This document shows, piece by piece, positions 7,211 through 22,256 of a DNA stretch of 64,000 nucleotides (positions are counted from its first letter, which is position 1; each line of letters opens with the position of its first letter). The translations under genes and the position numbers were made by a program. Under the pieces are notes generated by a model. The model saw only the letters and a program-made list of their open reading frames with translations, made no database searches and was not told where the DNA came from. The stretch is from Candidatus Obscuribacterales bacterium (GTDB lineage: Bacteria > Cyanobacteriota > Vampirovibrionia > Obscuribacterales > Obscuribacteraceae): the NCBI GenBank assembly GCA_020050685.1, contig JAGVKG010000029.1, positions 1 through 64,000 of the forward strand, read 5' to 3'.

Positions 7211-9184
7211 ATGGAAATAGGAAATGATAAGGACTCAGAACTAATCATGGCCAGTAAGAAATTCGGTGAAAATGTGGAAAGCGGGAACGACGGCAAGGAT
7301 CAAGGAATTGCCGAAAAAAAGTCTCGTAATCAAACTGGTTTGGACAAGGAAAGTGTATCAGCTTGGTCGGGTAGAAAAGACGAGCGGGTAACTGCTTTGG
7401 AGACACCTGCTCACAAAGAATCGATGATGGAGAAGAGAGGCAAGCGTGATCAATCGGGTGGAAATCAGGCAAGCGATGAAGGTAACGAAGGAAAGGGTAG
7501 GCGCTCACGCAAAGTCGAGAGTACAGACGAATCATCTAGTAAGCCGGCAGACAAAAAGGAACTGAGGCAAGAATCGCCTGTTGCTAAGCTTGAGGCTCCT
7601 GCCGCATCGGGTAGACCTTCGGTAAAAGAAACTGCAGCTACCACATCTGATACCAAAGCGGCTCAGCAGCCAACTGAAAAGGCACAATCGAGGGAGCAAC
7701 CAATTGCGAGTGAGTCTGCTGTGACTCGTCGTGATGCGCCGGCTCCAACTAGTCTAGCGAGTGATAGTCAAAAGTTTGCACAGTCAGTCGAAGCAGCGTC
7801 GCCAGGTGGGCGAAAACCCGAGTCAGCTCCTGAACCGGCAAAAGATGCACGTTCAACGAGAGAACAAGATGCTTCGTCACGCGCAGAAGCTAGGCAGCAA
7901 TCTGATGCTAAAGATAGATTCGATATTCGGCAAGAACCAACTGGAAAAGTTAGTACACGAGAAGGTGCGGAGATGCGCACGTCGGAACAAGGCGGAAAAC
8001 CAAGCGATGTGTCTGCGGTTAAGCCGGGTGACAAGGATGTGGGTGGCAAAACGCCGGGTCGCATTGATGATGTTGTGTTGACGCAATCACTAATGCCGCA
8101 AGAAAAGGGCGGGCGTGTTCCAACAGATTCTCATGATAAACCGCGCACTCCAGAAGGAGCACTTGGTGATGCAGCTGCTAAGCTATCCCGTCTGGTTGAT
8201 ATACAAACCAGTCACGATTCAATTACATTTACGCTTCAAACCAAAGATGGTCAACGTAAAATAGATCTTGCTGATCCAAAGACACAGCAATCAATTCTCG
8301 ATGCTGCTGCGCTGAAAGACCAAGGCGACATCAGGGGCTTGCAAACAAAACATCCAGTTATCGCTGAGCTTCTCGGAACATTGAAACCAGATCAATTGAA
8401 TCAAATCAAAGACACTCTCACGCAAGCACACGATCTTGGCCCTCGTAATAAAGCTATCGATGCTGCAGTCGTCCAAGATCTTTCGGTGTTGGCAGATCGC
8501 ATTCGCTCGCAGATGAAAGATCAACCGGACCAAAAATCTCGTGGTGAACTCGGTGAAAAGCCTGATGCCACCAAAGATGCAAAGCTGGAAGGCAAGAAAG
8601 ATATAAAATCTGAAACCGACGGAAAACTATCCGACAACGTTAAGCAAGCATTCACAAAGTTAGACAACGTCATCGATAAAATCAAGACCGCATTGCACAG
8701 TAAAGAGGACGCACAAGAAAAAATCAACGAGCGACAAGCCTCACACCTCGATTACATGAAGAACCTAGTCGAGAAATACGGCGGCGTACCTTCAGAAATC
8801 ATTACTCCGAGGAGCACTGTCGCTGAACCAGGCAAACTCACCGATCAACACATGGACCAAATCTTCGATCGCTTGAGTAAATCAACAGAAAGTTCCAAAG
8901 TAACAAAAGAGGAAGCCGACGAATCCACGTCAGCAAAAAAGGACGATGAGGATACTCACACTACGTGCACCACAAATCAAGGCGACACCATTCGTACAAT
9001 CGCCAGAGATCGCCTCGCCGATCCAAACCTCGCACCATTGATCTGCAAACTCAATCCCGGCTCATGCAAAATCGAAAACATTGATAACCCGTTTGCATCC
9101 GGCACATCAATCACGCTCCCAAACCAATCCGACATCGCAACCTACAGAAAACAGCTCCAAGATCGATCTGGAAGTAAAGCATGA
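7211..9184 (+). CDS. Long disordered protein with C-terminal LysM-like domain
   Basis: 657 residues, most of them a low-complexity, highly charged Lys/Glu/Ser/Ala/Gln region (residues ~1-330) without a signal peptide or membrane segment. A folded, helix-rich core at ~335-435 begins SITFTLQTKDGQRKIDLAD. A further charged linker leads to a LysM-like module at ~583-640 (NQGDTIRTIARDRLADPNLA ... ITLPNQ). The same core and LysM module occur in the paralogue at 10704-13400. LysM modules bind peptidoglycan or chitin, but no export signal is visible, so either export is unconventional or the role is cytoplasmic. The start ATG 7211 has only a weak ribosome-binding site; ATG 7247 is an alternative. Function unknown. 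Confidence 0.75.
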   Translation: MEIGNDKDSELIMASKKFGENVESGNDGKDQGIAEKKSRNQTGLDKESVSAWSGRKDERVTALETPAHKESMMEKRGKRDQSGGNQASDEGNEGKGRRSRKVESTDESSSKPADKKELRQESPVAKLEAPAASGRPSVKETAATTSDTKAAQQPTEKAQSREQPIASESAVTRRDAPAPTSLASDSQKFAQSVEAASPGGRKPESAPEPAKDARSTREQDASSRAEARQQSDAKDRFDIRQEPTGKVSTREGAEMRTSEQGGKPSDVSAVKPGDKDVGGKTPGRIDDVVLTQSLMPQEKGGRVPTDSHDKPRTPEGALGDAAAKLSRLVDIQTSHDSITFTLQTKDGQRKIDLADPKTQQSILDAAALKDQGDIRGLQTKHPVIAELLGTLKPDQLNQIKDTLTQAHDLGPRNKAIDAAVVQDLSVLADRIRSQMKDQPDQKSRGELGEKPDATKDAKLEGKKDIKSETDGKLSDNVKQAFTKLDNVIDKIKTALHSKEDAQEKINERQASHLDYMKNLVEKYGGVPSEIITPRSTVAEPGKLTDQHMDQIFDRLSKSTESSKVTKEEADESTSAKKDDEDTHTTCTTNQGDTIRTIARDRLADPNLAPLICKLNPGSCKIENIDNPFASGTSITLPNQSDIATYRKQLQDRSGSKA

Positions 9185-9219
9185 GTTGCTGAGCTCGCGA
9201 TGATGAACGACCGTGCTGT

Positions 9220-9822
9220 TTAGTGTGTTGTAGACTTCAAATTCTTTTCTATGAATAGAAGCTTTTCTCTTTCCTCTGGCGGTGGAGAAGGGTAGGAATC
9301 ACACAGTGAATCGTGCACTGCTTTGAGCGCGGCCTCATTCGCTTTAGGAAATTCAGGAATATCCGAAAGATGATCATATATTTTCATGCCTAAGGCGGGA
9401 ATTCTCCAATCACGATGCATTGTTCGGGCGACATCAAGATCTTGCAGGGCATGCTTCAAGCTTGCAACATGTAACTGTTGATTGTGATCTGTTTCCGCCT
9501 GAACACCTTGTCCGAAATACGCGAGACCGCGGGCGTAATAATGATTGGCGCTTGGGAATATTTTGATCGCTTGGGATTGTTTTTCGATAGCCTCGGCATA
9601 GTGACCAGCTATTCGAGCGTCCTTGCCCTCTTTGCTCAGCTTTGTTGCGGTATCATAACTTTCCTTGCTACCGATACGCGGATCGTACTCTCCCAACGCA
9701 TAGACTGCAGAGGCGTTCGGTGAAGATGTATTACTTAGCTGGTTAGGCACTGCATTAGCTGACATGTGCATGCACAGAATAACAGCTATGATCACTAATG
9801 ACTGATGAATTTTGATTCTCAT
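9220..9822 (-). CDS. Secreted TPR-like protein, paralogue of the adjacent gene
   Basis: 200 residues with a signal peptide (IHQSLVIIAVILCMHMSANA). The mature part contains YALGEYDPRIG, then TPR-like helices (EGKDARIAGHYAEAIEKQSQ, ANHYYARGLAYFGQG) and MHRDWRIPALGMKIYDHL. It aligns along its whole length with the neighbour at 9855-10433 (shared ALGxYDPxIG, HYxEAIEKQSQAI, MHRDWRIPA, YDHLxDxPEFP), so the two arose by tandem duplication. Only this copy keeps a signal peptide. The stop is 35 bases from the end of the convergent LysM gene. Function unknown. Confidence 0.75.
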   Translation of the reverse strand: MRIKIHQSLVIIAVILCMHMSANAVPNQLSNTSSPNASAVYALGEYDPRIGSKESYDTATKLSKEGKDARIAGHYAEAIEKQSQAIKIFPSANHYYARGLAYFGQGVQAETDHNQQLHVASLKHALQDLDVARTMHRDWRIPALGMKIYDHLSDIPEFPKANEAALKAVHDSLCDSYPSPPPEEREKLLFIEKNLKSTTH

Positions 9823-9854
9823 AAAGTTCCTAGATACAGAGATGCAAGAGCATT

Positions 9855-10433
9855 TTACAAGTTCTTGAGTCCTGCGTCCAAGGCATGTTCGATGGTCTTG
9901 AGTTTCTCTTTCTCGGCTGGCGGTGGTGGGAAGGGATCTGATGCGTATAAGGCATCTTGGGCAGCTTTAAGTGCGGACCTTTTGGCATTCGGAAATTCAG
10001 GAACATCAGTGAGATGGTCGTATACTTTCATGACCGCAGCCGGAATTCTCCAATCGCGATGCATCGATCGGGCAACGCCAAGATCTTGCAAGGCATACTT
10101 CAAGCTTGAGACTTGCAATTGTTGGTTGCGATCTGTTTCGGCCTGAAGACCTTGTGCAAAATAAGCTAAACTGCGGCCATAATAATGACTGGCGCTGGGG
10201 TACATCCGGATTGCTTGGGATTGCTTTTCGATAGCCTCTGAATAGTGACCCGTTGTTCGAGCTTCTTTACCTTCTTTGCTCAGTTTTACTGCAGCATTGT
10301 AATTTGTCTCGGTTCCAATTTTTGGATCATATTGTCCAAGCGCATAGACTTCTTGATGGACACTTGACGGTAGTCCAAGTGTGCTTTGTGTATAGTTTTC
10401 AATTTTTGTTGTGGCTACTTCAAGACCTGACAT
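9855..10433 (-). CDS. TPR-like protein without signal peptide, tandem paralogue
   Basis: 192 residues from ATG 10433, chosen because GGAGGG lies about 6 bases upstream; an in-frame TTG at 10448 overlaps that site. The body matches the secreted paralogue at 9220-9822, with the same TPR-like repeats and the MHRDWRIPA block, but the N-terminus (MSGLEVATTKIENYTQ) is polar and has no export signal. One copy is therefore predicted to be cytoplasmic and the other exported. The two genes are 32 bases apart on the same strand and likely form one transcript, divergent from the LysM paralogue at 10704. Function unknown. Confidence 0.75.
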   Translation of the reverse strand: MSGLEVATTKIENYTQSTLGLPSSVHQEVYALGQYDPKIGTETNYNAAVKLSKEGKEARTTGHYSEAIEKQSQAIRMYPSASHYYGRSLAYFAQGLQAETDRNQQLQVSSLKYALQDLGVARSMHRDWRIPAAVMKVYDHLTDVPEFPNAKRSALKAAQDALYASDPFPPPPAEKEKLKTIEHALDAGLKNL

Positions 10434-10703
10434 ATTGATTCCCTCCAATCCGTTTGCCTTGAAGATAATTTATTCGATTTTGGCATCTGAGTCAGTGGGG
10501 AACATACCATCGCGGTCTTCTGGGATTTCGTATGATTCCCAAAGACATTCTTGAATAATTCACCAGGCCACAAAATGTGTCCATTTATCGGTCGCCTCGC
10601 ATTTGCATTTAATGTAATGGGTACATTGAAAATGGATTGGCGAATCAAATTAGTGAATATTTGACGTCAGTTTTTGTAACTTAATGGCTTGGAATTGAAT
10701 TAT

Positions 10704-13400
10704 ATGGACGGCAAGATTACTGATATCGTGAGTTTGGAGGAGGCTGATTCGAGCGAAACCTCTGATAATACTTTGAGTGATAAATCGTCTAAAACTCCAG
10801 AGCCCTTGTTAGCAGAGGGAAGGAGCTTAAGTTTTGGGCCTCCAGCTATAGCGAATAGAAATGACGTTTCTTCTCCACAGAGCAATGTATCTGAAAAGAG
10901 AGGGTCCGCTGATGTCAAAACCCTCGCCAGTGCTGGAAATGAGGGTGGTCAAGTCGGAGTGTCTGATAACGCTAGAGGGTCAGGGAAGGTTTCGGAGACT
11001 TTGGTTGGCGCTGCGCCAGTGGCGGGGTCGGATGGTGGGCAGCGGAATTCGGCGCCGGTGGAAAAGGCGGCTTCGGCTCAAGGGGTGATCGCTTCTCGCG
11101 ATTCTGGTGTCCACAATAGTTCATCGGCGAGTGCGACGGCACCGGAAAAGTTGGCTAGCGCGTCAACGAATGAAAAGTCAGCGTCTGCCAGTAGTGAAAA
11201 AGGTTTTTCATCTCAGGCGTCTGGAGAAAAGATAGCATCGTCTGCATCTTCGTCGTCTCCTGACGTGAAAGAGAGTAGTGCGTCGTCAGCAAGTGCATCG
11301 ACATCTGTTAAGGCGGAGATTGATAGTTCTTCTAAGAAGCAGAGTGGTGGTGAATCATCGGCTGAAAGTGGTGGCAAAGAAGAAGGAAAAGGTCGCAGCA
11401 AAGGTGATGGTACAGCACATGATACCAAGTCGGAAGTAGGAAAGAGCGACGATGAGAAGTCGTCAGGATCGAAATCACGCAGCGCGCGTTCTGAATCGGA
11501 TGAAGACAGTTCACCGCGGGGACGAAAGGACAAAGATTCGTCGACTGATGGCGGTAAGAGTGGCAAAGAATCATCAAGTGATGGTGGCAAGGGCAATAAA
11601 GATATTTCTGCTGATGCTGGAAAAGGAAATGGCAAAGAATTAGATTCTGGCAAAGTGCGTGGTAAAGATAACGATGCCGTCGAGAGCAAGTCTTCCATTC
11701 GCGCTGAAGCAAGTGGTAAGACATCAACTTCCGAAACTGGCATGCGTCAGTCGGAGCAAGCGGGAAAAGTTGAGGCAACGGACAGAGGCATTCAGGCGCC
11801 GAAGGCAGGAGATCCTAAGGGAGATGGAAGTGGCATCGCGCTCGTAGATGGAAAGATGCTTCAGGATGCAAATAAGATTCGATCACAAGGTGGAAGTGGT
11901 GGCGTCGGTGGTGGCAGTGGTGGTTCTTCGTTTGATGGTCGCTCCCGCAAGCCGGATAAACCGCAGTCTCCGGAAGGCGGCGGCGGTGATGGTCGCCCAG
12001 GCAGATCTCCTGGTGACAAGACACCTAATGACATAAACGACAAATCACGCGGTAATGACAAAGTTACCTTGACTGTCGATACGAAAACTGGCGGCAAGCA
12101 GGAAGTCAATCTTGCAGACAAAGCGACGCAGAAGAACATGTTGGAAGCGATCAACATGGTTCAGAAAGGCGAGCAAAACAAAGCAGAAAGATCATTTCCT
12201 GTAATTGCACACCTTGTTTCGCAATTTACTGTGCGGCAAATTGATCAGGTGAAGCAGCTTCTCACGTCAGCTTTTGATGCGGTGAAAGCTGGCAAGGCGA
12301 ATGATTCAGCTAAAGTCGAAAAGCTTACTAAGGCCGAAGTGAAGGCGCTGCAGGCTGAAGTGGCTAAAGACATTGCGCTTGTAGTCCAACAATTTAAGGG
12401 ACAGTCCAAGGCTTCCTCTGGAGATTTGCAAAAAGAATTATCAAAGACGCCATCATTAGATCAGTCAAAAGATCTTGCTAAAGATTCGGCATCTTCCAAA
12501 CAGCCAGTAAGAGAGCAGGGAATTGCCCGTGCCGTCGAGTCCACGCAAAATAAGAATCAACAGGTTATGCGCGCTGAACGCGAGCCGATCAAAGCGCAAG
12601 ACAATCAAATTGCTAGACCGATTGTGAGACCAGAGGATAGAGCAAATGTTAGAAGTGATTCGCAGCCTCATCTGCGGCATGATGCGAAACCGGATCTGAA
12701 GAATGCGCGTGAAATCATTCCTGGTGTTAAGCCGGACACAAGACTTGATTCCAAAAGTGAAGTCAAAAAAGATATCGCCCGAGAATCAAAGTCAGAACTA
12801 AAGTCAGAATCGAAAACAGACGCACACGCTGAAATTAGAAAGACGAATCAGCCAAAAGAAACATTCAACAATCGCGTGGTGCGCGAGGGTGCCTTCATGT
12901 TTGATCGCCTGATCGGCATGATCAAAAAGACTCTAGGCGATGAGATCGAGACTCTTGAAAATCGAAACAAGGCGCTAGAAAATCACAATGCTGCTGTTAG
13001 CGATCTCTTGGTGAAATTCAGCACGACAATTGCATCTGCGAGTGGACCTTTTGATGACACTGGCCCGATCACAGACGAACGCATCGATCAGATCTTCGAA
13101 AAAATGCAGAAGTCTGCTGCGCCAGATATCGGGAAAAACGAAGACGGTTCTATTTCATTGGCGCAATTCCACGGCGCGCAAGAACGTCGTTCATACACCG
13201 TTCAATCCGGCGACACCGCTCATTCAATTGCCAGAGATCAGCTAAGCGATCCAAATCTAGTTTCGCTAATCTGCCAATTCAATCCCAATCTCTGCCGAAT
13301 GGAAGACATCAATGAGGCATTGCCACAAGGAATGGAAATCGTCATCCCCAATCAAGCCGACATCAACGTGTACAAAAAAGAACACGCCACGATTAGTTAG
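10704..13400 (+). CDS. Long Ser/Gly/Lys-rich disordered protein with C-terminal LysM domain
   Basis: 898 residues from ATG 10704; an in-frame TTG at 10689 would add five residues, and neither has a strong ribosome-binding site. Residues ~1-450 are an extreme Ser/Lys/Gly/Asp-rich disordered region, ending in Gly-rich runs. A folded core at ~451-567 (KVTLTVDTKTGGKQEVNLAD...) matches that of the 7211-9184 paralogue. A second charged region rich in KSE repeats follows, then a short coiled coil at ~748-775 and a canonical-looking LysM at ~827-885 (YTVQSGDTAHSIARDQL ... IVIPNQ). A loop GKNEDGSISLAQF just before the LysM is EF-hand-like but lacks the usual first and last ligands. No signal peptide. 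Function unknown. Confidence 0.75.
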   Translation: MDGKITDIVSLEEADSSETSDNTLSDKSSKTPEPLLAEGRSLSFGPPAIANRNDVSSPQSNVSEKRGSADVKTLASAGNEGGQVGVSDNARGSGKVSETLVGAAPVAGSDGGQRNSAPVEKAASAQGVIASRDSGVHNSSSASATAPEKLASASTNEKSASASSEKGFSSQASGEKIASSASSSSPDVKESSASSASASTSVKAEIDSSSKKQSGGESSAESGGKEEGKGRSKGDGTAHDTKSEVGKSDDEKSSGSKSRSARSESDEDSSPRGRKDKDSSTDGGKSGKESSSDGGKGNKDISADAGKGNGKELDSGKVRGKDNDAVESKSSIRAEASGKTSTSETGMRQSEQAGKVEATDRGIQAPKAGDPKGDGSGIALVDGKMLQDANKIRSQGGSGGVGGGSGGSSFDGRSRKPDKPQSPEGGGGDGRPGRSPGDKTPNDINDKSRGNDKVTLTVDTKTGGKQEVNLADKATQKNMLEAINMVQKGEQNKAERSFPVIAHLVSQFTVRQIDQVKQLLTSAFDAVKAGKANDSAKVEKLTKAEVKALQAEVAKDIALVVQQFKGQSKASSGDLQKELSKTPSLDQSKDLAKDSASSKQPVREQGIARAVESTQNKNQQVMRAEREPIKAQDNQIARPIVRPEDRANVRSDSQPHLRHDAKPDLKNAREIIPGVKPDTRLDSKSEVKKDIARESKSELKSESKTDAHAEIRKTNQPKETFNNRVVREGAFMFDRLIGMIKKTLGDEIETLENRNKALENHNAAVSDLLVKFSTTIASASGPFDDTGPITDERIDQIFEKMQKSAAPDIGKNEDGSISLAQFHGAQERRSYTVQSGDTAHSIARDQLSDPNLVSLICQFNPNLCRMEDINEALPQGMEIVIPNQADINVYKKEHATIS

Positions 13401-13423: not shown

Positions 13424-13480
13424 CTAGCTAGACATCGGCACTGCCAGCGACTGCAAGAACTCTCGCACGCTGTCGCGTGA
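13424..13480 (-). pseudogene. Remnant of an alpha/beta hydrolase 3' end
   Basis: The minus strand at 13480-13424 encodes SRDSVREFLQSLAVPMSS followed by a stop. The last residues of the complete hydrolase gene at 15277-16137 are FRESVREFLQSLAVPLSS followed by a stop. At DNA level the two stretches are about 81% identical over 54 bases, and an in-frame TGA lies immediately upstream of the homologous block. This is a 3'-terminal fragment in the same orientation as the intact gene, lying just before the hipBA operators. Confidence 0.75.
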
Positions 13481-13500
13481 TCAATAGCGCCATTTTGTCG

Positions 13501-13621
13501 AATAGTCCCATTCGGGATTATTTCCCATTTAAGCACTCCTCCTGCAACGAAATACTCCCGCACGGGACTATTGTGGTTCGGGTCTCTGCTATAATAAATA
13601 AAAATCCCGCTCGGGAGTATT
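13501..13621 (+). promoter_or_regulatory. hipBA promoter with three HipB-type operators
   Basis: Three copies of a 22-bp inverted repeat with the core TCCC(N4)GGGA flanked by AATA/TATT are at 13501-13522, 13551-13572 and 13600-13621. Their centres are 50 and 49 bases apart. A TATAAT box (13590-13595) lies between the second and third copy, and the third ends 5 bases before the hipB ATG. This is the layout expected of an autorepressed hipBA operon; E. coli HipB operators share the TATCC(N8)GGATA logic. Binding itself is inferred. Confidence 0.8.
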
Positions 13622-13626
13622 GCCCA

Positions 13627-13869
13627 ATGAGTCTCAAGACAGCCAAAGAAATTGGAGAACTGGTTCGCAACATACGCAAAGGCCACAAGGTAACTCAAAA
13701 GGAACTTGCCGCTGCTTCTGGAACGGGCATTCGCTTTATTCGAGAACTTGAGAAAGGCAAACCAACCTGCGAATTGGGAAAGGCGATGCTGGTGCTCTCG
13801 ATGCTAGGCATTTGCCTGGAGGTAAGCCATCCCAGATCAAATGATAGTGGGCAACGAGGCAAGGCGTAA
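13627..13869 (+). CDS. hipB: HipB-type antitoxin (HTH Xre family)
   Basis: 80 residues from ATG 13627. A longer open frame extends upstream to 13477, but it runs through the operators and promoter and is not coding. Residues ~5-60 form a lambda-repressor/Xre helix-turn-helix domain (GELVRNIRKGHKVTQKELAA, then SGTGIRFIRELEKGKPT). HipB dimers bind the operators upstream and neutralise HipA. The stop TAA shares its last base with the ATG of hipA, so the genes are translationally coupled. The protein matches E. coli HipB in length (88 residues) and role. Confidence 0.9.
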   Translation: MSLKTAKEIGELVRNIRKGHKVTQKELAAASGTGIRFIRELEKGKPTCELGKAMLVLSMLGICLEVSHPRSNDSGQRGKA

Positions 13870-15122
13870 TGGATAGTAAACAACTTTCGGTTCGATTGCA
13901 TGGTCTGCCGGTTGGCGTCCTTGAACAAGATCTGCAAGGAGCGATGCATTTTACTTATCTTGAGACAGCTGCGCATGCGCTCTCGATTAGTATGCCTCTA
14001 ACGAAAAATGTTTATGACAACAATCATTGCGTGGCATTTTTTGGCGGACTGCTGCCGGAAAGCGACCATGTGCGCAAAGTATTAGGCAAGAAATTTGCTG
14101 TCAGTCCTAATAATTCATTTGGCTTACTAAGGGAGATTGGCAAAGACTGCGCGGGGGCTATTTCATTCCATCCCGTAGACGAGCCGGTTCTTGCTCATGA
14201 TGATTTTGCTTTAGAAGGTCGTGTTCTGTCGGATGAAGAACTAGTCACTTACATACAAGAACTACCGACGAAGCCGCTTTTCATAGGCGTAGATGGTTTG
14301 CGGCTATCACTTGCCGGTATTCAGGACAAGGCAGCCATTTGTCTGATCGATGAGCATATCGCGATTCCCCAACATGGATGCCCAACTACACATATTCTCA
14401 AGCCGGCTATTGATCGCTTTGCCGGCACGGTTGAAAATGAATATTTCTGCATGACACTTGCCAAACGACTTGGTTTGCCTGTTGCCGAGGTTGAAATGCG
14501 CCGGGCAAAGGATATTTCTTATCTCCTGGTAAAACGCTATGACCGCACAACTTTAGACAACAGAATTCGCCGAATTCATCAGGAAGATTTCTGCCAGGCT
14601 CTATGTGTAAGGACATCACATAAATATCAAAACGAGGGCGGACCAGGTTTCAAGCAATGTTTCGATCTTCTGCGCCTGACCAGCACACCGGTTATAGACC
14701 GAACAAGATTCGCTCAATTCGTGATTTTTAACTATCTAATCGGCAACAATGACGCTCATGCCAAAAATTATTCGTTACTTCATTTACCAAATGACACCAT
14801 TGAGTTAGCCCCTCTTTACGATACTTTGTCGACGTGCATTTACAAAGATCTCAGCAAAAGGATGGCTATGAAAATCAGCAGCAAGTATGAATTGGATCGT
14901 GTCGATCCTCGACACTGGCAGGAGCTCTGCCAGGATATTGGCTACTCATACCCCTTGCTAAAGGAGACATTGCTTTCACAGACCGAAGGCATTCTTGAAA
15001 CAGCAAAAAGGGAATTTACAATTCTCAAGGAAAGCTCTATCGATCTAGGTTCGGTAAATAGCATTATCTCGTTGCTTGAAAAGCATTGCACAAAAATCCT
15101 CAAGCGATTCAAGGAGTTATAG
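13869..15122 (+). CDS. hipA: HipA-family serine/threonine kinase toxin
   Basis: 417 residues, close to the 440 of E. coli HipA. The N-subdomain-1 motif (VGVLEQ...FTYLET ... LSISMPL) and FFGGLLPES are at residues ~15-65. SLAGIQDKAA is at ~140-150, the catalytic segment NYLIGNNDAHAKNYS is near ~290, and APLYDTLST follows in the metal-binding position. HipA of E. coli phosphorylates glutamyl-tRNA synthetase and causes persistence; the target here is inferred only by family. It is convergent with the alpha/beta hydrolase gene, 154 bases away. The module lies between two copies of that hydrolase's 3' end. Confidence 0.92.
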   Translation: MDSKQLSVRLHGLPVGVLEQDLQGAMHFTYLETAAHALSISMPLTKNVYDNNHCVAFFGGLLPESDHVRKVLGKKFAVSPNNSFGLLREIGKDCAGAISFHPVDEPVLAHDDFALEGRVLSDEELVTYIQELPTKPLFIGVDGLRLSLAGIQDKAAICLIDEHIAIPQHGCPTTHILKPAIDRFAGTVENEYFCMTLAKRLGLPVAEVEMRRAKDISYLLVKRYDRTTLDNRIRRIHQEDFCQALCVRTSHKYQNEGGPGFKQCFDLLRLTSTPVIDRTRFAQFVIFNYLIGNNDAHAKNYSLLHLPNDTIELAPLYDTLSTCIYKDLSKRMAMKISSKYELDRVDPRHWQELCQDIGYSYPLLKETLLSQTEGILETAKREFTILKESSIDLGSVNSIISLLEKHCTKILKRFKEL

Positions 15123-15276
15123 ACAATGCAAGCTCTTATACAGTTCAGTTGCCACTTGCTTTTGCTCCCAATCAATTTATAAGCAGAACGGCAAGTTTCG
15201 CGAGGCACGCCGAGACAAAAGTATGTCCGTAAACCTATTGCGAGTGCTCAGGAAATCACGGACTGTCAAGCAGAAT

Positions 15277-16137
15277 TTAGCTGGATAGTGGCACCGCAAG
15301 GGACTGCAAGAACTCGCGCACGCTTTCGCGGAACAGATCCGGATCCTGCAGATACAGATCTATATGATCCGAGTTCGGCAGGCGCACAAATTTCTTTGGC
15401 TCAGTTGCATGCTCAAACACTTGCTCTGCGTGAGCAAAAGGCACCGTACCGTCTTTCATACCATGAATAATCAAAAGCGGCGGATGCTTTTTCTTCACAA
15501 CGCAAACATTGTCCAACAGCGGCTGAGGATACAACCAACTTGGATACGCTCTAAGTGGTGGCACATGCTCGCCACCAATGCGCCGCAAGGATTCAAATCC
15601 GGATTGCAAGACAAGCGCACCAGTCGGAACGACCGTGGACAGATAACTTGCAACGCCGGAACCAAGCGATTCACCGTAGTTGATGATATTGTCTGGATTG
15701 ATCTCCGCTTTCTCTACCAAATATTTGTATGCAGCAACTCCATCCTCGCAAATCTTGCGCACGGACGGCTGCCCTTCCGATCTACCATAGCCCTGATAAT
15801 CATAAATAAGCACCGATGCGCCAGCCTGAAGCAAAACACTCACAAGTCCCATGCGCGTCGTCAAATTGCCGCCGTTGCCGTGGTGAAACAAAATCGTTTT
15901 CGTCGCATTGGGATTCTGGAAAAACCAACCGTGCAAAGTTCTGCCATTTGAGGAAGGAAAGTAGACATCGCGGCGCTTCACATCGGACATCATATCCACG
16001 TGATAATCGCCAATCGGATACTTGTCCGGATGGAACAGCAACTTGCTATATAAAGGAATGTTTATACGCGGCGAGAACGCAAGATATATTGCGCCAAGCG
16101 CTGCGGCGGTTGTCAGGGGAATTCTGATTAGGTTCAT
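15277..16137 (-). CDS. Membrane-anchored alpha/beta hydrolase
   Basis: 286 residues. An N-terminal hydrophobic segment (LTTAAALGAIYLAFS) acts as a membrane anchor or uncleaved signal. The hydrolase fold shows the oxyanion-region motif HHGNGGN (~85-91), the nucleophile elbow GESLGSG (Ser ~155), the acid in HGMKDGTVP and the catalytic His in NSDHIDLY near the C-terminus. This is the FrsA/YqkD-like or BAAT-like group of small hydrolases often called lysophospholipase- or dienelactone-hydrolase-like; substrate unknown. Its 3'-terminal ~57 bases are duplicated at 13424-13480. Confidence 0.85.
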   Translation of the reverse strand: MNLIRIPLTTAAALGAIYLAFSPRINIPLYSKLLFHPDKYPIGDYHVDMMSDVKRRDVYFPSSNGRTLHGWFFQNPNATKTILFHHGNGGNLTTRMGLVSVLLQAGASVLIYDYQGYGRSEGQPSVRKICEDGVAAYKYLVEKAEINPDNIINYGESLGSGVASYLSTVVPTGALVLQSGFESLRRIGGEHVPPLRAYPSWLYPQPLLDNVCVVKKKHPPLLIIHGMKDGTVPFAHAEQVFEHATEPKKFVRLPNSDHIDLYLQDPDLFRESVREFLQSLAVPLSS

Positions 16138-20286: not shown

Positions 20287-20319
20287 AGTCTCAACGAAGT
20301 CAGTTGAGAAAACTACTTG
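20285..20319 (+). terminator. Hairpin after sdhB
   Basis: TCTCAAC (20289-20295) pairs with GTTGAGA (20303-20309), and CAAGT/ACTTG can extend the stem outward. It lies between convergent genes. The U tract is weak, so the call as a terminator is tentative. Confidence 0.45.
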
Positions 20320-20843
20320 ATTCGGTTTAGGAAAACCTGCAACTTCTCTTCCTGCCTCTCCCTCGCTGACCATTGTTTTACTTTCTCGATATCAATTGGA
20401 TGTTTTTGCGCGATCCAGATTGCTTGATCGAGACACTGCCTGTCATTGGAGAAATAAAACCAAGTCAGCCTGTCCATCACCGATTGTGTCGGCGAGAACA
20501 TTTTAATGGTCACGCCGGAAACCTTCATGTGTCCTTCGGCTTGCACCGGTAAATCATCACCAATCGCAAGAGGTCCTGTAGGAAACTCTACAGTAAACGA
20601 CGTGCTCGGATGGACAAAATCTTTGCCCGCACTTTCAAATCCCAACTCCGACATTGCCTGGGTGATCTTCTTATGATCCGCAGGACTGATAAAATCCAAA
20701 TCGCGTGATTCGTATTTATTGTTTGTGTAAATGCTTACAACAGATCCACCAACTAAGACTGCATCTATTTGGTGCTCAGTAAGTTTTTTCACAACGATGG
20801 CAGCAAGTTCTTCGCGCGTTGTGTTGGCCGCAATTTTTCTCAT
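20313..20843 (-). CDS. Nucleotidyltransferase-like protein
   Basis: 176 residues. The N-terminal half has the minimal nucleotidyltransferase pattern VLVGGSVVSIYTNNKYESRD followed by LDFIS: a GGS motif followed by a D-x-D pair, with a likely third carboxylate in SFTVEFPTG. Proteins with this layout are described as nucleotidyltransferase-like (DUF6036-type) and several act as toxins or tRNA modifiers (the MNT, AbiEii and MenT groups). The gene is coupled by an ATGA overlap to an upstream winged-helix gene, which resembles a regulator/antitoxin plus nucleotidyltransferase/toxin pair. Activity is not known. Confidence 0.65.
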   Translation of the reverse strand: MRKIAANTTREELAAIVVKKLTEHQIDAVLVGGSVVSIYTNNKYESRDLDFISPADHKKITQAMSELGFESAGKDFVHPSTSFTVEFPTGPLAIGDDLPVQAEGHMKVSGVTIKMFSPTQSVMDRLTWFYFSNDRQCLDQAIWIAQKHPIDIEKVKQWSARERQEEKLQVFLNRIK

Positions 20844-21175
20844 AAGGCTTTACCTGTTCGACGTGGGCGGCGCCGCTCACGAAAGAATTGTTCCGTTTGT
20901 TCTTCCGGCATTAGCACGAGCATTTTTTCTACAAGAGCTATCAACTCGGCTTTGATTGCCAGCCGAGGATTGAGACGAAAGAGTTTGATGTTGCCGGAAA
21001 ATTGGCTGACCAAAATGCCACCAGCCTCCAACCTCTCTAATTGCAGTTGCACTTGTCTGGGAGCAATGCCAAATATTTTGGCAATGCCATTGATGTAGCC
21101 CTCGCCATAGTTGACTATGTAGAGCAAGCAGGCTTCCGCAACCCTGTTTCCAAATAGTGCCTTGTACATTTCCAT
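20840..21175 (-). CDS. Winged-helix transcriptional regulator paired with the nucleotidyltransferase
   Basis: 111 residues from ATG 21175; TTG 21181 and ATG 21169 are alternatives, none with a strong ribosome-binding site. The central part (ACLLYIVNYGEGYINGIAKI, GIAPRQVQLQLERLEAGGIL, SGNIKLFRLNPRL) is a winged helix of the ArsR/MarR-like class. The C-terminus is basic (RERRRPRRTGK). It overlaps the nucleotidyltransferase start by four bases. Three TGATAT repeats spaced exactly 21 bases lie directly upstream and are the probable binding sites for this protein. Confidence 0.65.
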   Translation of the reverse strand: MEMYKALFGNRVAEACLLYIVNYGEGYINGIAKIFGIAPRQVQLQLERLEAGGILVSQFSGNIKLFRLNPRLAIKAELIALVEKMLVLMPEEQTEQFFRERRRPRRTGKAL

Positions 21176-21198
21176 CACCAAATATTATCACACTAATT

Positions 21199-21247
21199 GA
21201 TATAAACATACCACTTATTGATATAACTATATCACAAAATGATATGA
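21199..21247. promoter_or_regulatory. Three TGATAT operator repeats at 21-bp spacing
   Basis: TGATATA at 21199-21205, TGATATA at 21220-21226 and TGATATG at 21241-21247 are spaced exactly 21 bases apart, i.e. two helical turns. The second is part of the perfect inverted repeat TGATATA-AC-TATATCA (21220-21235). They precede the winged-helix/nucleotidyltransferase operon; GATAAT on the minus strand (21190-21185) is a -10 candidate. Confidence 0.65.
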
Positions 21248-21260
21248 TTCTATCGATAAA

Positions 21261-21301
21261 TATTGACCAATTTGATTAAAATGACTAAAATGGTCAATAT
21301 C
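21261..21301 (+). promoter_or_regulatory. 10-bp inverted repeat upstream of the Phd/RelE pair
   Basis: ATATTGACCA (21261-21270) and TGGTCAATAT (21292-21301) are exact reverse complements separated by 21 bases. The right arm ends 17 bases before the antitoxin ATG. This is the likely autoregulatory operator of the downstream TA operon, placed beside the TGATAT array of the divergent operon. Confidence 0.6.
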
Positions 21302-21318
21302 TGCGAGGCTAGCAAACA

Positions 21319-21573
21319 ATGAAGACAATTTCCTCCACCGATTGCAAAACCAGATTTGGTGAATGCCTGGACGGTGTGCGCACCGAGCCCCTCACGATTG
21401 AAAAGACAGGGCGTCCAGTTGCCGTACTCATTTCTAGCTCTGAATATGCTCGATTAATGGCTATGGAAGATGCATATTGGATTGCACGAGCAAAAGAAGC
21501 CGAAGCGTCTGGCTTTATCGGAACAGAAAAATCAATGGAACTTTTGAAAGCAGCATTAGATGCGGAAGCTTGA
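21319..21573 (+). CDS. Phd/YefM-family antitoxin
   Basis: 84 residues. The N-terminus (MKTISSTDCKTRFGECLDGV) and PLTIEKTGRPVAVLISSSEY form the Phd/YefM DNA-binding fold, with the tell-tale I.ktGrPvAVlis.eEY motif. The acidic, helical C-terminus is the toxin-binding part. GAGG lies about 10 bases upstream of the ATG. It overlaps the RelE-type toxin gene by 14 bases. Confidence 0.88.
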   Translation: MKTISSTDCKTRFGECLDGVRTEPLTIEKTGRPVAVLISSSEYARLMAMEDAYWIARAKEAEASGFIGTEKSMELLKAALDAEA

Positions 21574-21826
21574 TCTAACGAATGATGCTGCGAGCTTTCT
21601 AACCGGATTGGAAGCAAAGCAAACTAGACAAGTTTGGCACAAAGTTATAGCACTAATGAAAGATTCAAGACCCAATGATTCAATTGCCATGGGCGAAGAG
21701 TACTTTCGCACAGATATAGGTGAGTATCGCATAGTATACAGATTCGATGCCGGGTGCCTTTATGTCATCGTCGTTGGAAAGCGTAACGACGACGAGGTCT
21801 ATCATCGGTTCAAAAATAAGAAGTAG
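21560..21826 (+). CDS. RelE/ParE-superfamily toxin
   Basis: 88 residues. The pattern LTNDAASFLTGLEAKQTRQV (helical hairpin), then YFRTDIGEYRIVYRFD and LYVIVVGKRNDDEVYHRF is diagnostic of RelE/StbE-type mRNA interferases. The conserved Arg of GEYRIVYR and the C-terminal Tyr/His/Arg cluster are in the expected places. It overlaps the antitoxin gene and ends in a 17-base overlap with the convergent vapC gene. Confidence 0.88.
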   Translation: MRKLDLTNDAASFLTGLEAKQTRQVWHKVIALMKDSRPNDSIAMGEEYFRTDIGEYRIVYRFDAGCLYVIVVGKRNDDEVYHRFKNKK

Positions 21827-22256
21827 TCTCGTCACGCAGATGGAGAAGTTTGATGTCCTTATAGCTGCGAAAGTCGGCATCAAAGGTAACTAGACGGTAA
21901 TCGCCGGCGGCAGCAAATGCCGCCAAATATGCATCAGTCCAATCACCCGCACGTATGTTGAATTCTTGCGCGAAGCGCCCAAGCCATGCGTCCAGCTCTT
22001 GAGGCTCATCTGCTAGATGAATGTGCGGTACGGACAACCAAGTCGACAATGCTTTCCAGGCTGAGGCACCATTGAGAACGCGTTTGCCTAAAATCTGCGT
22101 ATTGGTCAAGTAACGCAAAAGAGCTAGCGCTGTCAGCCGGCAGAATACCAATTCGGTGCCTGCTTCATCGTCCCAGTAACGCCGCGCTCTTTTGTAATGC
22201 ACATGATCCGGTGCGGAAAGCGGCAGCCAGACACTAACGTCTAGTAGATCGCGCAT
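21810..22256 (-). CDS. vapC: VapC-like PIN-domain toxin
   Basis: 148 residues. PIN-domain acidic residues are visible: D near the N-terminus (MRDLLDVSVWLPL), E in the DDEAG region, D in AGDWTDAYLAAFAA and D in LVTFDADFRSY. VapC toxins are Mg-dependent ribonucleases that cut tRNA or rRNA. The start lies inside the upstream vapB gene (23-base overlap). The 3' end overlaps the end of the convergent RelE gene, showing how tightly the two TA loci are packed. Confidence 0.88.
   Translation of the reverse strand: MRDLLDVSVWLPLSAPDHVHYKRARRYWDDEAGTELVFCRLTALALLRYLTNTQILGKRVLNGASAWKALSTWLSVPHIHLADEPQELDAWLGRFAQEFNIRAGDWTDAYLAAFAAAGDYRLVTFDADFRSYKDIKLLHLRDETTSYF

Follow-up and report, generated by a model that had tools for sequence, protein, structure and literature searches.

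Putative imported gene ends at toxin–antitoxin loci: a hipBA cassette behind a hydrolase gene in an Obscuribacterales bacterium

In the 64,000-nucleotide stretch of a Candidatus Obscuribacterales genome analysed here (the window), a hipBA toxin–antitoxin (TA) cassette has probably joined the 3' end of an alpha/beta hydrolase gene, bringing with it the gene end of a diverged relative, and other TA modules have probably done likewise in the family, sometimes repeatedly. The anatomy is recurrent, with TA pairs sitting behind genes, and comparison of the duplicated ends provides strong evidence that some of them were imported. The case is built from flanking gene-end repeats, coding constraint on the differences between them, recurrence at other genes, the TA content of the inserts, and the absence of any integrase seen nearby.

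The insert between the two copies of the hydrolase end, about 1.8 kb long, has hipB and hipA as its only coding content and, by ORF and Pfam analysis, no recombination genes of its own. A hipB-type HTH gene lies directly upstream of the hipA kinase gene and overlaps it, which is the layout of HipBA type II TA systems, and three TCCCRNNCGGGA operator-like sites, 50 and 49 bp apart, precede hipB. The antitoxin scores 69.4 bits against the NCBIfam couple_hipB model, slightly below the 71.65 cut-off, while HipA matches E. coli HipA structures with E=7e-48 (phmmer). Like E. coli HipBA (HipA, PDB 2wiu), the pair combines a HipB HTH, HipA N-terminal and kinase domains, and upstream palindromic operators. 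By its genes and operators it is an ordinary HipBA type II member, with predicted toxicity and neutralisation, and differs from the E. coli system in its genomic anchoring alone. The features of the locus are as follows.

10689..13400, plus strand: flanking 903-aa gene (ORF) with a LysM-like C-terminus by eye; 23 nt separate its stop from the displaced hydrolase end
13424..13480, minus strand: displaced 3'-end copy with intact stop, the proposed original end (repeat, genome search, codon comparison)
13481..13500, unstranded: distal junction, from the end of gene homology to the start of the operator region (repeat limits)
13506..13517, unstranded: hip operator-like palindrome 1, TCCCATTCGGGA (sequence)
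13556..13567, unstranded: hip operator-like palindrome 2, TCCCGCACGGGA (sequence)
13605..13616, unstranded: hip operator-like palindrome 3, TCCCGCTCGGGA (sequence)
13627..13869, plus strand: hipB antitoxin, 80 aa (Pfam HTH_3)
13869..15122, plus strand: hipA toxin kinase, 417 aa, convergent with the hydrolase gene (Pfam Couple_hipA and HipA_C)
15123..15276, unstranded: proximal junction, from the hipA stop to the hydrolase stop (sequence)
15277..15333, minus strand: gene-attached 3'-end copy, the proposed module-supplied and putatively foreign replacement end (repeat and codon comparison)
15277..16137, minus strand: alpha/beta hydrolase gene, 286 aa, its 3' end serving as docking point (Pfam Hydrolase_4/Abhydrolase_1); in many relatives Tmemb_14 and sdh genes come next

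A simple scan of the proximal junction found no terminator, and the 903-aa gene matched no Pfam family. Pfam scans covering the main ORFs between 0.5 and about 18 kb, with five more ORFs reaching to 23.7 kb, revealed no integrase or transposase, in keeping with the first-pass annotation, and no integron integrase was found among the window ORFs scanned. The surroundings hold further TA genes and local repeats: a MazF/PemK-type toxin with a ribbon-helix-helix antitoxin upstream forms another TA pair near the hipBA region (1352-2028), and a cluster at 20313-22256 includes a DUF2204 nucleotidyltransferase, a PIN toxin (21810-22256) and, on the opposite strand, a Phd-type match (21319-21507). Tandem TPR paralogs at 9220-10448 share 75% DNA identity over 450 bp, and the 3' ends of two LysM-like genes within 7211-13400 are 65% alike.

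An unprompted repeat search of the window returned the pair 13425-13477 and 15278-15330 as a direct repeat, 83% identical over 53 nt. The first-pass annotation had reported a copy, at 13424-13480 and in the same orientation, of roughly 57 bases from the very end of the hydrolase gene (15277-15333); this holds, although its 81% identity becomes 79% once all 12 differences over the 57 nt are counted, the best block of 53 bp at 83% containing mismatches too. Queried by blastn against its own 4.2-Mb genome, the hydrolase gene finds only two meaningful matches, itself and the displaced fragment (E=4e-8). Both copies end in frame, as had also been noted, reading SRDSVREFLQSLAVPMSS and FRESVREFLQSLAVPLSS, each followed by a stop, and the stop codon is the 3' limit of homology in both. 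The other limit in the displaced copy falls at 13477-13480; the spacing of 20 bases originally given to the hip operator fits the inverted-repeat arm at 13501 (about 20 nt), but the first operator core, at 13506, is 26 nt away.

The differences between these two ends are far from evenly spread. Ten of the 12 occupy third codon positions (hypergeometric P=1e-4), leaving codon meaning unchanged in 16 of 19 codons, stop counted. Neutral drift of a local duplicate predicts changes over all codon positions, so the third-position bias shows that both copies diverged while coding. The two sequences diverged as the ends of working genes, in different lineages or as paralogs, before coming together. 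Such constrained divergence fits the gene end of a foreign allele or of a lost functional paralog, and it argues against a drifting local duplicate. It also lends weight to the original proposal that hipBA came in at the 3' end of the gene together with a replacement end.

Comparison with relatives points to arrival at this locus. Among the genomes compared, the source genome is the only one of its genus, and the comparison covers the sister genus (G047-G049) and the wider family. The common family order is aconitase(+) ... hydrolase(-), Tmemb_14, sdhC and sdhA, with an aconitase-hydrolase interval of variable content and 0.1-5.7 kb; neither hipBA nor the 57-bp fragment occurs in this interval in the relatives examined, which supports the idea that hipBA came to the hydrolase from elsewhere. 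The window interval is far larger, with a thioredoxin/TPR gene, two LysM-like genes, two TPR genes and hipBA, and looks like an expansion site. Further support comes from the closest hipBA (HipA 78% identical), found in G047 on a different contig; next to it, a TPR module lies between two 38-bp direct repeats with the look of a tRNA 3' end. Viral contigs and plasmids contained only distant HipA relatives, below 60% identity. The first-pass annotation had suggested looking for the same 57-bp end beside other modules, a search that came back empty in the other genomes of the order except for a weak 25-bp match in G008.

The same comparison bears on whether the fragment could be what is left of a tandem hydrolase paralog, a functional second copy downstream that was mostly replaced by hipBA down to its last 57 bp. 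Coding-constrained divergence is compatible with a paralog, and the sister genus, whose hydrolase is 62% identical to that of the window, does carry one other alpha/beta hydrolase in the interval, downstream of the hydrolase and in the same orientation, without hipBA. That gene is, however, a different hydrolase, its C-terminus unlike the displaced fragment by eye, and a full second copy of the window hydrolase, which would have pointed to simple gene decay, was not seen in relatives; loss of a close tandem paralog at the window locus is thereby made less likely. Moreover, the pattern also occurs at rpoC2 (below), an essential operon gene of 3.7 kb for which a second, tandem copy is implausible, and the remnants are repeatedly 3' ends with TA genes between them. 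We consider paralog decay an improbable account of the hydrolase locus.

Import of a gene end together with the TA module gains from its recurrence with other TA families at other genes. Scanning 2.0 Mb for partial-gene direct repeats within 15 kb (1.61 Mb of the source genome, 0.28 Mb of G010 and 0.12 Mb of G011) yielded four verified 3'-end displacements, all four with TA genes between the copies and with the displaced copy on the gene's 3' side. This evidence base is four loci only, two of them from G010 and all from MAG assemblies:

Source genome (G000), the window: hydrolase gene with hipBA, hipA convergent
Source genome, contig G000:C34: rpoC2 with a MazE-like antitoxin and Doc toxin
G010:C6: OppF-type ATPase gene with a Phd antitoxin and PIN toxin
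G010:C1 (L141): 439-aa DUF1574-like gene (SGNH by eye) with a serial array

The last of these surfaced by testing the flanks of other hipBA loci, and it presents the most elaborate case. Behind the DUF1574-like gene lie a convergent hipBA and, beyond it, a first copy of the gene end (251 bp, 92%), the layout also present in the window; next come a protease/TPR module and a longer second end copy of 452 bp (93%); last are a RelE/ParE-type toxin (TIGR02683), a downstream partner gene and an HTH/HipA fragment, closed by a 51-bp third end remnant. The 5' breakpoints of the copies lie at gene nt 870, 1073 and 1239, while the homology of the two longer copies goes no further than the stop codon. The closest counterpart of the array gene in G011, which belongs to the genus of G010, shares only 54% identity with it. 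Flanking repeat lengths across the loci are 57, about 250, about 455, 120 and 154 bp. For the hydrolase, OppF and both of the longer SGNH copies, homology ends at the stop codon or within about 8 nt of it, while at rpoC2 it runs 54 nt past the stop codon, beyond the terminator.

The scan returned few 5'-end or internal repeats, and these were of other kinds. The source genome is rich in TA genes (25 PIN and 12 Phd matches), but even there a random 1-2 kb stretch would presumably seldom contain a TA pair. The converse search speaks against the model: a crude flank-repeat test was positive at 3 of 14 TA loci against 37 of 400 random positions, not above background and unspecific, with giant repetitive genes lifting the background, and most TA loci checked show no such flanking repeat. 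One further 3'-end match, at G000:C13, was rejected as a TA insertion, since it reflected a spurious antisense ORF across tandem paralogs; the locus (L252, 14228-15714) holds tandem small paralogs that share end and terminator sequences, are not TA genes, and possibly belong to an immunity-gene-like family. At G000:C16 (L259, 6751-9534) a 74-aa gene and a vapB fragment are duplicated around a TA cluster, which may be a more complex relative of the 3'-end theme or a regional duplication.

Divergence between copies at the other loci resembles that at the hydrolase. The rpoC2 copies, of which the displaced one also has a 1-nt deletion, mismatch at 1 of 100 coding positions versus 13 of 52 in the terminator (Fisher P=3e-6). 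In G010, 11 of 19 differences in SGNH copy 1 are at third codon positions, and the differences by codon position are [5,4,23] for SGNH copy 2 and [3,2,6] for OppF. Pooled with one fragment per locus, 39 of 55 differences fall at third positions (P=1.4e-8). The codon bias and the coding-versus-terminator contrast look like two alleles from different strains, although some of this evidence at individual loci could also fit a lost, once functional paralog. RM systems offer a precedent for another origin, in which the recipient's own gene end is duplicated on insertion and the displaced copy drifts neutrally: they are reported to insert with long, variable target duplications (Nobusato 2000; Furuta 2010, cited in PMC3031569). 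Local duplication is nonetheless disfavoured, because neither the synonymous bias nor the rpoC2 contrast is expected of one neutrally drifting copy; a shared origin of both copies from the recipient target is at odds with these patterns, and we regard it as barely credible.

Site-specific integration deserves more weight, with hipBA either an integrase-less remnant like a CIME or mobilised by an integrase in trans at an att site within the gene 3' end. Prophage e14 leaves the same anatomy, cutting icd near its 3' end, supplying a replacement end and leaving a 163-bp displaced end as a pseudo-fragment (PMC6379469). CIMEs, too, are known as integrase-less modules flanked by gene-end repeats that undergo tandem accretion into serial arrays at one 3' end (PMC5704250). 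Several hipBA relatives lie at tRNA or tmRNA 3' ends. In the same-class genomes G136 and G072, hipBA occurs at tmRNA 3'-end fragments (L169 and L170), adjoining the intact tmRNA gene at L169 and lying between direct repeats of about 360 bp (89%) at L170. Arrays of tRNA-Arg-like 3' fragments with gene modules between them are found at L119, L153 and L154, and a tyrosine integrase adjoins one tRNA-Arg 3' fragment (L154; G049). The RNA-linked hipBA relatives and the G049 integrase favour site-specific integration, and L119, L169, L153 and L154 are consistent with classical integrase att sites, which makes the integrase-free element of our model uncertain; TA cassettes inserting at gene 3' ends may possibly be integrase-less remnants. 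Against this, no integrase was seen in the annotated stretches around the four protein-gene loci, the displaced copies in the G010 array begin at three different points rather than at one core, and the TA cargo is found at different, unrelated genes. On balance, site-specific integration seems unlikely to be the explanation for these loci.

We favour a route in which the gene end is the substrate for homologous recombination and the TA pair stabilises the insert. The hipBA cassette would recombine into the hydrolase 3' end carrying a gene-end copy from a diverged relative; the supplied end would keep the reading frame intact, and the recipient's old 3' end would be pushed to the far side of the module, to persist as the 57-bp fossil, if the direction is as we propose. 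The mobile molecule may consist of a gene 3' end and a TA module; a circle released when flanking end copies recombine would be one example. A single homologous crossover could then integrate it, as could one-sided homology combined with illegitimate joining, with the gene end providing the homology for a RecA-type reaction, and toxin addiction would select against the reverse crossover. More tentatively, TA operons might constitute an integrase-free cassette system that docks at gene 3' ends, carrying a host-end allele, moving by homologous recombination, rebuilding the gene and being kept by addiction, with serial insertions producing arrays behind core genes such as rpoC2; we offer this generalisation as a possibility well short of our confidence in the hipBA case.

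Known systems resemble parts of this picture. In e14/icd, as presumably at hipBA, the replacement end is on the gene and the displaced end at the insert's far side, but e14 is a prophage with site-specific integration, whereas the hipBA insert carries a TA pair only. CIMEs share the lack of own recombination genes, the gene-end flanking repeats and the serial arrays; here, however, no fixed core is apparent, the longest block shared by the hydrolase ends (53 bp) containing mismatches, breakpoints vary, and most modules consist of a single TA operon, placed behind a variety of protein genes. RM insertions also involve an addiction-type module, no transposase or integrase, and long, variable flanking direct repeats, but at our loci homology extends over gene 3' ends only, and one copy is apparently a foreign allele that has diverged. 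Within the partial literature covered, no description of TA modules that carry a replacement gene end came to light.

How single TA operons move between chromosomes without a visible vehicle is a long-standing question. If TA cassettes carry replacement ends, there would be a concrete and testable route for that movement, their harmless seat behind core genes would be explained, and new sites would become predictable. The sequence signature—a displaced gene end that differs mostly at synonymous sites—would date and polarise arrivals, and can be scanned for in any genome.
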